Assembly: GCF_002563635.1 (NCBI RefSeq)
Contig: NZ_PDIZ01000001.1
Span: forward strand, 1,674,001-1,738,000
Reading direction: 5' to 3'
DNA: 64,000 bases
DNA from: Bacillus sp. es.036
GTDB taxonomy: Bacteria > Bacillota > Bacilli > Bacillales > Guptibacillaceae
Numbering within the stretch: position 1 is the stretch's first letter; every line of letters starts with the position of its first letter. Below the pieces are notes generated by a model. It did not search any database. It had not been told where the DNA came from and saw nothing but the letters and a program-made list of their open reading frames with translations. Shown in pieces: positions 12,243-50,069 of this stretch. The position numbers were made by a program, and so were the translations under genes.

Positions 12243-12291
12243 ATACAGATAGATAAGGGTTTGAAGTTATCGCCCCCTTTTCCCCCTGTTT

Positions 12292-12325
12292 GCACCGTAT
12301 GGGCAACTTTCATCGCGTACGGCGC
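12292..12325 (-). ncRNA. Group II intron domain V
   Basis: Exactly 34 nt, with two arms closing on a GATGAAAG-type internal segment. This is the catalytic hairpin and the most conserved part of group II introns. Its intact form suggests the ribozyme is functional. Confidence 0.85.
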
Positions 12326-12383
12326 GCCAACTAATCCAATTCATTCTTTCGATGTAATGAATAAAGCCGATTTATATTAAATC

Positions 12384-14198: not shown

Positions 14199-15065
14199 GT
14201 CGGTGACTCCCTTAGGAGTTGAACCTCTTTTAGTCTCACGAGAACCTTATTAATCGATAAAGAACTGTCTTACATGGTTGAATGATCTTCATTAGTCTAG
14301 TGGCGATCCCTCCATGTGAATTAGACATTTCATTGGTACTGTGCCACCACTTTCACTGATATTAAGGTAAGTTATACAGTTGTTATTCTCACAATTGTTT
14401 TCCTTATCACCATTTCATCGGAAGCAAGTCCTCCACGTTATCAGCTTACAACGTTGAATTATATCTATTATAGAAAGAAGTTAGGTGCTTCCTGTAAGCC
14501 TGTTAGTCGTTCATGCGCCTTTAACACACCGTGGACTTTCATATTTACGAGTTTTACTCATCCACTACTAACCTCACTCTTGGTGATATACACATTTCTA
14601 TGTATTGCAGTTATAGACCTGTACCTTCAGAAGTTCGTCAGCTTAACCTCTATTCTTATAGGTTATACGCATTCTCACCATGTTCTTTCAACCCAAGCAT
14701 TATGATTCACACCACCCCCGCAGGTAGGTTTTCGTCAGCCGATCCTGTTACGGTGAATTCTCACGCCTTTTCATCGAGCTTATAACACTCTTATCCTTGC
14801 TAATTCAAGTGCTATTCGACTAAGAGAGAGCCCTTCAAGACGTTACGCTATCATTTGACTCTTCGATATAATCCTTCAGTTCTGTAAAGAACTGTCTAAC
14901 TTTTACCTGAGTAATGTGACCATTCTCAGTTTAATTAGAAACGTTTCGCACCACAAAACTGCCCGATTGCTGAACATCACTACGCTTTAAAAAATACCAT
15001 ATTTTTCTATTCAATCGAACTATTCTACTTTTTTAATGACATTAAATACTTTATTATCAGCAAAA

Positions 15066-29170: not shown

Positions 29171-29244
29171 TGCGCCTTAGAGGATTCGAACCTCTGACCC
29201 ACAGCTTAGAAGGCTGTTGCTCTATCCTACTGAGCTAAAGGCGC
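29171..29244 (-). tRNA. tRNA-Arg (UCU)
   Basis: Cloverleaf with acceptor GCGCCTT/AAGGCGC and anticodon loop CTTCTAA, anticodon TCT. The 3' CCA is not encoded, unlike the other tRNAs of the cluster, so it depends on the cca enzyme (gene at 56461). Confidence 0.95.
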
Positions 29245-29338
29245 ATGATATTGAGAAGTGACTCATCTAATCATTAGTATATCATGATTTAAATTATGAT
29301 GGGAAGTTCGTTCTGACATTCTTCTCGAAAATATGTAA

Positions 29339-29412
29339 TGGAGCGGGTGATGGGGATCGAACCCACGACATCAGCTTGGAAGGCTGAGGTTTTACCACTA
29401 AACTACACCCGC
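29339..29412 (-). tRNA. tRNA-Gly (UCC)
   Basis: Acceptor GCGGGTG/CACCCGC, anticodon loop CTTCCAA, anticodon TCC; CCA encoded. Confidence 0.95.
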
Positions 29413-29415
29413 AAA

Positions 29416-29490
29416 TGGCTGGGCTAGCTGGATTCGAACCAACGCATGACGGAATCAAAATCCGTTGCCTTACCGCTTGGCTATAGCCCA
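29416..29490 (-). tRNA. tRNA-Gln (UUG)
   Basis: Acceptor TGGGCTA/TAGCCCA, anticodon loop TTTTGAT, anticodon TTG; CCA encoded. Confidence 0.95.
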
Positions 29491-29494
29491 ATCA

Positions 29495-29579
29495 TGGTGG
29501 AGGGGGACGGATTCGAACCGCCGAACCCTGAGGGAGCGGATTTACAGTCCGCCGCGTTTAGCCACTTCGCTACCCCTCC
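29495..29579 (-). tRNA. tRNA-Tyr (GUA)
   Basis: Acceptor GGAGGGG/CCCCTCC, anticodon GTA in CTGTAAA, long variable arm as expected for bacterial tRNA-Tyr; CCA encoded. Confidence 0.95.
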
Positions 29580-29596
29580 ATGATGAAATTGAAATA

Positions 29597-29673
29597 TGGT
29601 AGCGGCGGAGGGGATCGAACCCCCGACCTCACGGGTATGAACCGTACGCTCTAGCCAGCTGAGCTACACCGCC
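29597..29673 (-). tRNA. tRNA-Met (CAU), elongator type
   Basis: Starts GGCGGTGTAGCTCAGCTGG, anticodon loop TTCATAC; close to B. subtilis elongator tRNA-Met as remembered; CCA encoded. Confidence 0.92.
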
Positions 29674-29687
29674 ACTTAAATTATGTA

Positions 29688-29764
<77 letters not shown>

Positions 29765-29774
29765 AAAAAATATA

Positions 29775-29859
29775 TGGTGCGGGTGAAGGGACTTGAACCC
29801 CCACGTCGTAAGACACTAGATCCTAAGTCTAGCGCGTCTGCCAATTCCGCCACACCCGC
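29775..29859 (-). tRNA. tRNA-Leu (UAG)
   Basis: Acceptor GCGGGTG/CACCCGC, anticodon TAG in CTTAGGA, long variable arm; CCA encoded. First gene of the seven-tRNA unit. Confidence 0.95.
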
Positions 29860-48286: not shown

Positions 48287-48784
48287 TTAACTTTGTTTAA
48301 TCGACCGTGAGCGCCAGTAGTCCCCATTACTAAAGTAATAATAGGCAAACGTATAGCGATTGTCGGTATCGATAAACGTTGCTTCCCATACGAGTACTTG
48401 TTTCTTTTCTTGATTCACTTCAATACCTGGTTTAATATTAATAATCTCTTGTGGAGAAAATTCATTGTTCAATTTCTTTTTAACCGTTTCTGCACTAACG
48501 CCTTCCTCCACTTTCTTTGTTACGAGAGGTTGATCGTTGTCTGGCACAAAAACGTAAACCTCATCCTTGTTCTTATCGCTTCCTTGTAAGACGACATATG
48601 CATCACTCGTCCCATGATATTGGACGGCATTATCAACTTCTTCGATCACTGCTTCAGATTCAGCTCGAGCAATCGCTTCGTCCTCTAACTTATCAGGATG
48701 ATCCGTAATAGCGTTATAAAAAGAGACTCCTTGCCAAATCATCAGTGCTACAATAACACCAGCAATAATTCCTATCAGTCGCAT
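48287..48784 (-). CDS. ypmB: YpmB family protein (membrane-anchored)
   Basis: 165 aa. One N-terminal membrane helix (LIGIIAGVIVALMIWQGVSFYNAI) then two PepSY-like (DUF5590) repeats. Probably outside the membrane. Function unknown. It lies between ypmA and aspB as in B. subtilis, so the three genes form one unit. Confidence 0.9.
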   Translation of the reverse strand: MRLIGIIAGVIVALMIWQGVSFYNAITDHPDKLEDEAIARAESEAVIEEVDNAVQYHGTSDAYVVLQGSDKNKDEVYVFVPDNDQPLVTKKVEEGVSAETVKKKLNNEFSPQEIINIKPGIEVNQEKKQVLVWEATFIDTDNRYTFAYYYFSNGDYWRSRSIKQS

Positions 48785-48796
48785 ACTATCACCCTA

Positions 48797-48967
48797 TTAT
48801 GTACGGTAGATCGTGAAAATCATTTGATCCTGATCTTCTTCATCAAGTGCAAGCCCAAACATAAGGTCTTTTTCTTTTAACGTACGATTTAACGAATCTA
48901 CAATTTTGTAAATATCAAGGGACTTACTCACTTTTACTGTCGATAAAACTTCAATGTTGCTTTCCAT
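48797..48967 (-). CDS. ypmA: YpmA small conserved protein
   Basis: 56 aa, starting MESNIEVLSTVKVSKSLDIY and ending FTIYRT, nearly identical in pattern to what I remember of B. subtilis YpmA. It has no signal or helix anchor; function unknown. Its stop lies 12 nt before the ypmB start. Confidence 0.92.
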   Translation of the reverse strand: MESNIEVLSTVKVSKSLDIYKIVDSLNRTLKEKDLMFGLALDEEDQDQMIFTIYRT

Positions 48968-48994
48968 TCCTGTCATCTCCCTGTACTATATGTG

Positions 48995-49147
48995 TTGATG
49001 CCTATGTGGAGTGCTGCGCTTACTCCGGGATAAATTTACTACTTATAGATGGCAGAAGGTGAGACAAACTATAAGTACCGTCAGAGACGGTGCATTAAAT
49101 CTGCTCCACTTCCAACAGTGCCTGCGCCATGCGCAGGCTATTTTTTA
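48995..49147 (+). ncRNA. Candidate structured small RNA, unassigned
   Basis: On the plus strand between genes of the other strand. Closing helix GTGGAG (49006-49011) with CTCCAC (49104-49109). Inside are ACTTATAG (49041-49048) with CTATAAGT (49069-49076) and an ACCGTC-AGA-GACGGT hairpin (49077-49091). It ends in GCCTGCGC-CAT-GCGCAGGC (49120-49138) plus TATTTTTT, a good terminator in the plus direction only. GGAGT near the 5' end can instead pair with ACTCC (49021-49025), and CTGCGC at 49014-49019 can pair with the 3' arm of the terminator, as in switching RNAs. No gene follows on this strand, so a free sRNA is more likely than a leader. I cannot match it to a known family. Confidence 0.45.
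49120..49147 (+). terminator. Terminator of the candidate RNA
   Basis: Eight-base-pair stem GCCTGCGC/GCGCAGGC, CAT loop, then TATTTTTTAT. It faces the plus strand although both flanking genes are on the minus strand. Confidence 0.75.
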
Positions 49148-49241
49148 TGTTGCTTTCTTACCCAAACCTTATAAAAAACATTTTCTCTTCCTATTTTTAA
49201 ATAAGTTCCGTTTTTTTGCAACAATTTCGATGAGGAAACTT

Positions 49242-50069
49242 TTATCTTGTTTCTTTTGTAGGAAGAGTGATGACATCATAGCGATCATTTTGAATACGAA
49301 GGGTTACACTTCCGATTCGATAAGGATAGTAAACGTCCGTCCAGCTTTCATTCAAACGTTCGAGTACCGATTCACTTACGTCAATGTTGTTATGACGAAA
49401 GATAACCGCCATTTGAGGATCAATTGCACTAAGAAATTCGGTTGAACTGCCATTTCCAGCACCAAAATTAGCCACTTTCAAAACTTCTACCGCTCTCCCG
49501 GAAGAGGCAATTTCTTCTTCAAGTTCAAGATTTGTTTCCCCCATCATTAATAAATCCTGACTTCCTAAGGATAGCATAAAAGTAACGGAACCTGTCTTAG
49601 AGATGTTCAGTATTTCTACATTCACATCCTCCGTCAGCTCAAGCTGTTGATTTTCTTGAATGTGCTGTTTTTGAATGTGTGATGGAATAGATGAAAGAAA
49701 AGCCGTTTCTACTCCTTTTGATAAAAACACTTCTTTCACATCATAATAGTGAAGCAAGTTGGAAAAATTCCCTGTATAAGCTTCATCCGCATTGGTAAGC
49801 CAAACTTTTCTAATTTCCTTTACCTTAAACATTTTCAGCCGATCTATTAACTCTTGTTCGGAATGAGAACTACCTGTATTAATTAGCACCGCTCCATTTT
49901 CTTTTGATTGAAGAAGAATGGCCTCTCCAATTGAAAGGTCAAGAAACGTCACTGCCACTTCATGATTTCTTAAATGAAGATCAACAGATTGAATTGAGGC
50001 TTCAGTACTTGTTGCACCGAGCATAAGAATATAAGTACTTATCATCAACACGAGTAATTTCTTCATCAC
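49242..50069 (-). CDS. Secreted metallo-beta-lactamase-fold protein with degenerate metal site
   Basis: 275 aa. Signal peptide of about 24 residues, then a ComEC-like metallo-beta-lactamase fold: VAVTFLDLSIGEAILLQSKENGAVLINTG corresponds to the DVGQGDAxLI...IDTG start of that family. The HxHxDH metal motif that should follow the next strand is replaced by LTNADEAYTGN, and later histidines are also missing. It is probably not a metallo-hydrolase; a binding or structural role outside the cell is possible. It follows dinG (40 nt) in the same direction. Unusual for this gene block compared with B. subtilis. Confidence 0.78.
   Translation of the reverse strand: MMKKLLVLMISTYILMLGATSTEASIQSVDLHLRNHEVAVTFLDLSIGEAILLQSKENGAVLINTGSSHSEQELIDRLKMFKVKEIRKVWLTNADEAYTGNFSNLLHYYDVKEVFLSKGVETAFLSSIPSHIQKQHIQENQQLELTEDVNVEILNISKTGSVTFMLSLGSQDLLMMGETNLELEEEIASSGRAVEVLKVANFGAGNGSSTEFLSAIDPQMAVIFRHNNIDVSESVLERLNESWTDVYYPYRIGSVTLRIQNDRYDVITLPTKETR

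Follow-up and report, generated by a model that had tools for sequence, protein, structure and literature searches.

The element at positions 49031-49147 of the plus strand is a real feature, a candidate RNA gene that had not been catalogued before and whose general kind is known, judging from the comparison of related genomes. It is probably a stand-alone, base-pairing small RNA (sRNA) of the FsrA/RoxS type, encoded on the plus strand and restricted to one bacterial family, in which a C-rich seed would lie next to the terminator. The strong evidence for the element was comparative, and came from the contrast between a conserved island and its flanks, from the column-shuffle z score of the aligned sequences and from compensatory changes. 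An earlier note on the window (the whole stretch of DNA that was analysed, 64,000 nucleotides) had proposed a structured RNA on the plus strand that carries a terminator of its own and fits no known family, and its conservation among relatives supported this proposal.

The source genome of the window belonged to the genus Pseudalkalibacillus, which was placed in Fictibacillaceae by NCBI, and the same gene neighbourhood was found in the named relatives P. hwajinpoensis, P. spartinae and P. caeni and in strains filed as Alkalihalobacillus or Bacillus. The minus-strand genes around the element followed one another as dinG, ComEC-like gene, ypmA, tseB/ypmB, aspB and asnS, of which TseB was assigned by Pfam and the names dinG, ypmA, aspB, asnS and ComEC-like gene were read from the sequence; every nearby gene lay on the minus strand, as had been stated. 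The element was located in the spacer between the end of the ComEC-like gene (49242) and the start of ypmA (48967). Its divergent neighbour was ypmA (48797-48967, minus strand; open reading frame read from the sequence, synteny in 15/15), and the ComEC/metallo-beta-lactamase-like gene (49242-50069, minus strand; alignment of 8 homologues, no Pfam match) was convergent on the 3' side. The ComEC-like protein carried LTNADEAYTGN at the expected place of the metal-binding HxHxDH motif and is possibly a pseudo-enzyme, and in several other families of the order a similar gene also separates dinG from ypmA.

Conservation dropped sharply at both ends of the island, as displayed by blast limits and by the identity profile. 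Identity over nine divergent loci ranged from 0.47 to 0.93 within 49031-49150, compared with about 0.15-0.16 in the flanks at 49001-49015 and 49151-49180 and 0.39 at 49016-49030, and the blast match of four more distant relatives (L010-L013) spanned only ~49031 to ~49144. The core was smaller than the 48995-49147 proposed earlier: the island 49031-49145 was kept in all 14 genomes of the genus and in one of a sister genus (P. caeni), always between the ComEC-like gene and ypmA (15/15 family genomes examined). By blast against 60 relatives the spacer was found in 12 genomes, its own included, all of one genus. No copy was detected by blast in G003 and G010, yet divergent copies came to light when tseB was used to find the place, and these scored E 1e-21 to 1e-22 with a covariance model that had the two among its building sequences. 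The single sister-genus genome, P. caeni (G014), was left out of model building, and a further diverged copy was recovered at the same place with E 7e-6 over the 3-kb locus.

No credible copy outside the family was obtained in an order-wide covariance-model search of 397 sampled genomes under strict filters; further matches down to E 8e-5 were rejected, being at unrelated places and hairpin-driven where inspected. In 15 tseB loci from other families that were inspected directly, the element was missing by the same search that recovered the P. caeni copy, and Bacillus sp. OK048 had the same gene order without it. There were no second copies in its own genome, where an extra covariance-model match came from the element's own terminator hairpin on the opposite strand, and none in the phage records searched. 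As far as searched, the putative RNA was restricted to one family of bacilli.

The predicted structure consisted of three stems followed by an open C-rich stretch and a terminator. Stem P1, formed by ACUUAUAG (49041-49048) and CUAUAAGU (49069-49076) around a loop of ~20 nt, was fully paired in 11 of 14 sequences and carried a single mismatch in the other 3. Its 5' arm was invariant within the genus and the stem did not persist in this form in P. caeni; it was supported by pairing and position only, with no covariation in the 14-sequence alignment. Compensatory changes were found in stem P2 (ACCGUC at 49077-49082, GACGGU at 49086-49091), in which a U-A pair was replaced by C-G in 4 loci. The inner pair of P2 was C-G in eight sequences, U-A in two and C.A in two (L010/L011), the last being U.G if read on the minus strand. 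Insertions of 2 nt in L007 and 4 nt in L008 were located in the P2 loop, and length changes between loci fell in loops. The small stem P3 (GCA at 49092-49094, UGC at 49102-49104) was kept in 12/12 and was extended to GCACUA/UAGUGC in L010-L011 of clade 2. Both inner helices of the earlier note, 49041/49069 and 49077/49086, were present and paired across relatives, and of the covariation suggested there, compensatory changes were confirmed in P2 and none was detected in P1 or in a third helix, 49006/49104.

RNAalifold returned P1, P2 and the terminator from both the 12- and the 14-sequence alignments, and P3 from the 12-sequence one only. Compared with column shuffles, which do not keep dinucleotides, the energy of the 14-sequence alignment gave z -7.7, or -6.3 without the terminator. 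The single sequence 48995-49147 was moderately better than shuffles (z -2.0, 7/200 shuffles as good), and its minimum free energy (MFE) structure contained P2 and the terminator, without P1 and without the 49006/49104 helix. Single folds of clade 2 (L010-L012), G003 and G010 displayed P1, P2, P3, an open C-rich stretch and the terminator.

A long-range closing helix and two mutually exclusive pairings of 5' segments, as in a riboswitch, had also been suggested, and these were not retained. The closing helix (GTGGAG at 49006-49011, CTCCAC at 49104-49109) was intact in L002, L003 and L005, and of its 6 pairs, 3 were disrupted in some loci among the 8 closest, without any compensatory change; its 5' arm lay within the least conserved bases (16% identity). 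The segments held to pair alternatively were in 48995-49030, poorly conserved and outside the island, and GTGCTGCGC (49011-49019), expected to pair with the terminator arm, drifted freely in relatives. Since the closing helix breaks in relatives and the 5' segment drifts outside the island, the switch idea was dropped. The element resembles riboswitches as a multi-stem RNA ending in a terminator, but it has no gene downstream on its own strand, conserved alternative pairing was not seen and no matching family was found.

The highest conservation of the region, 0.93 over the nine divergent loci, was reached in the C-rich motif CUCCACUUCCAACA (49104-49117, plus strand; consensus CYCCACUUCCAACA), the unpaired stretch proposed as the seed. 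CCACTTCCAACA was identical in 12/12 genus loci and in P. caeni, and CCACTATCCAAC was found in G003/G010, in which the seed was changed from CCACUUCC to CCACUAUCC. The mean unpaired probability of the motif was 0.70-1.0 outside clade 1 and 0.22-0.49 within clade 1, to which the window belongs and in which some bases of the motif were usually paired with the P1 loop in the MFE structure. This competition was seen in the one clade and not consistently in others, and a pseudoknot AAGUG/CACUU between the P1 loop and the seed was rejected, as it fitted only some species.

The plus-strand terminator with T-run described earlier was recovered in all loci. It was composed of GCCTGCGC-CAT-GCGCAGGC and a T tail (49120-49147), the stem 49120-49127/49131-49138 being followed by TATTTTTTA, and the stem was present in 15/15 loci. 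Two terminator-like sites were found in 48700-49300 compared with 0.2 expected in shuffles. On the plus side at least 4 of 8 bases were T in 15/15 loci (mean 5.5 vs about 3.2 background), the tails being weak in L010/L011, whereas no T tail was found on the minus side of the hairpin in 15/15 loci (mean 3.1, about background). The closing pair of the terminator was C-G in most loci, U.G in L013 and U-A in L052/L053, and another pair was changed from U-A to U.G in L012; the wobbles in L012 and L013 favoured the plus strand, because the same positions are A.C mismatches on the minus strand. The terminator stem of P. caeni was largely replaced, and still formed a perfect 12-pair hairpin with a T tail. 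The energy of the consensus fold was -32.6 kcal/mol on the minus strand vs -28.4 kcal/mol on the plus strand. We considered the plus strand about four times as likely as the minus strand, which was a judgement and not a computed ratio.

A weak -10-like element TAAATT (consensus TAWATT) was located at 49031-49036 on the plus strand, which an approximate SigA scan gave as the best position common to 14 loci, and AATATT occupied this position in L013, L052 and L053; no shared -35 was found in the same scan of 14 loci. On the minus strand a second conserved element, TTGCAA-N17-AAAAAT (49185-49222; hexamers at 49216-49221 and 49193-49198), was kept in 12/13 loci and was looser in P. caeni. It may be a minus-strand promoter or operator for ypmA-tseB-aspB-asnS. 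A near-palindromic CTTATTT/AAATAAG was observed within it in G003/G010.

Rfam at the gathering threshold gave no match for the element or for its copies in four relatives, and the relaxed threshold gave only chance-level matches (E 0.17 or worse), so the view that no known family fits was upheld. Elsewhere in the window, Rfam matched two group II intron domains (12243-12327 and 14684-14879, minus strand), a ZMP/ZTP riboswitch (RF01750, 28796-28878, minus strand) beside a cluster of seven tRNA genes (29171-29859), and a pan motif RNA (RF01749, 55379-55461, minus strand). A small open reading frame starting at ATG 49049 was open in some clade 1 genomes only, and a conserved one was ruled out because of loop indels of 2 and 4 nt and stops. 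A minus-strand mini-ORF after GGAAGUGGRG was likewise rejected, its length and frame varying between species.

Several known sRNAs share single traits with the element. FsrA of B. subtilis is an 84-nt trans-encoded sRNA whose C-rich single-stranded region was proposed to pair with ribosome-binding sites (PMC8464778); the element is likewise small with a C-rich single-stranded region, but it differs in sequence, genomic place and structure, has no Rfam match and has no evidence of Fur control. RoxS/RsaE binds target mRNAs through C-rich regions, four in number and with many targets (PMC8464778), whereas the element has one such region, of different sequence and without an Rfam match. One of the interactions of SR1 of B. 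subtilis has its starting point in the left terminator arm (PMC8464778), and the motif described here sits near the left arm of its terminator; unlike SR1, which also encodes a peptide, the element has no conserved reading frame.

The base-pairing sRNA reading was preferred since the most strictly held part of the element was an unpaired C-rich motif, and short C-rich single-stranded regions have been described as the means by which FsrA and RoxS contact their target mRNAs (PMC8464778). An sRNA gene of ~105 nt would extend on the plus strand from roughly 49042 to 49147, and we infer its transcription, start site and base-pairing action from the conservation described. P1, P2 and P3 would form a scaffold in the 5' half, CYCCACUUCCAACA would lie exposed downstream of P3, and the terminator that follows it would end the RNA. 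Most likely, the C-rich stretch would then base-pair with mRNAs from other parts of the genome, at purine-rich sequences of their ribosome-binding regions, and block their translation.

Matches to the seed-complement pattern TGGAAGTGG..ATG were mostly in coding regions, with no clear excess over a reversed control, and no ribosome-binding site with conserved complementarity was found in partial scans. Among 20 sites fetched, the only real ribosome-binding site was that of eutH in G003, which was set aside, the gene having no match at E 1e-60 in any of the other 13 genomes. The ribosome-binding site of a bkdB-like dihydrolipoyl acyltransferase gene (GAAGTGGAGGG before GTG; contig C1 of its own genome, 1938030-1938043, L206) was complementary to the proposed seed. 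Its duplex of -20.2 kcal/mol was near the 1% tail of random windows in a scan of the own genome, and this site is the most plausible start-site lead, as an unconfirmed candidate. Two more weak seed matches were observed in the same stretch.

The main rival explanation is a minus-strand 5' leader of ypmA-tseB(ypmB)-aspB-asnS, transcribed from a promoter at ~49185-49222 and regulating the operon in cis. The conserved promoter-like TTGCAA-N17-AAAAAT just upstream, a consensus fold on the minus strand that equals or betters that on the plus strand, the P2 pair that is a wobble only there and a leader-like distance to ypmA fit such a leader, but we regarded it as unlikely: the T tail is on the plus side of the hairpin throughout, two terminator-stem wobbles fit the plus strand only, and aspB of B. 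subtilis was described downstream of the dinG promoter (PMC10938345). Moreover, the 45-60 bases from the island to the ypmA ribosome-binding site were poorly conserved, so that no conserved expression platform was seen. If the plus strand is transcribed, the RNA could instead act in cis only, as an antisense to the dinG-ComEC-like-ypmA-aspB spacer, where RNase III processing or interference would uncouple aspB/asnS from dinG. The position fixed in 15/15 genomes, fully antisense within a spacer that would be crossed by a dinG-to-aspB transcript (B. subtilis P dinG, PMC10938345), agrees with this; pure antisense, however, requires neither compensatory pairs nor a specially conserved single-stranded motif, and the same gene order occurs in related families that lack the RNA. 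We rated this reading as unlikely, slightly below the leader.

A plus-strand RNA that binds a protein through the conserved motif, as a decoy or scaffold, rather than pairing with mRNAs would explain why CCACUUCCAAC is nearly invariant and why the scans gave no conserved target, but the repeated motif of CsrB-type decoys is absent and Rfam gave no match, and we gave this reading a slim chance. That the structure arose by chance, or is decaying sequence without function, is very improbable; the single-sequence z of only -2.0 would suit it, and the sharp conserved island over 15 genomes with kept stems contradicts it.

Few trans-acting sRNAs with known targets have been described in Bacillus, five of them in B. 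subtilis (PMC8464778), and no sRNA work on this group of bacilli was found in the literature searched. The trans-acting C-rich sRNA might, through its position, also be an obligate signal for antisense processing of the dinG-to-aspB/asnS transcript, a dual role that we rated as improbable, little short of the purely antisense reading; if true, expression of the DinG helicase would be tied to the cell-wall regulator TseB and to aspartate/asparagine metabolism within one family of bacteria. The candidate family is single-copy and synteny-fixed with a clear proposed seed, and thus lends itself to an easy deletion and target test. If confirmed, the element would represent a new RNA family of an expected type.
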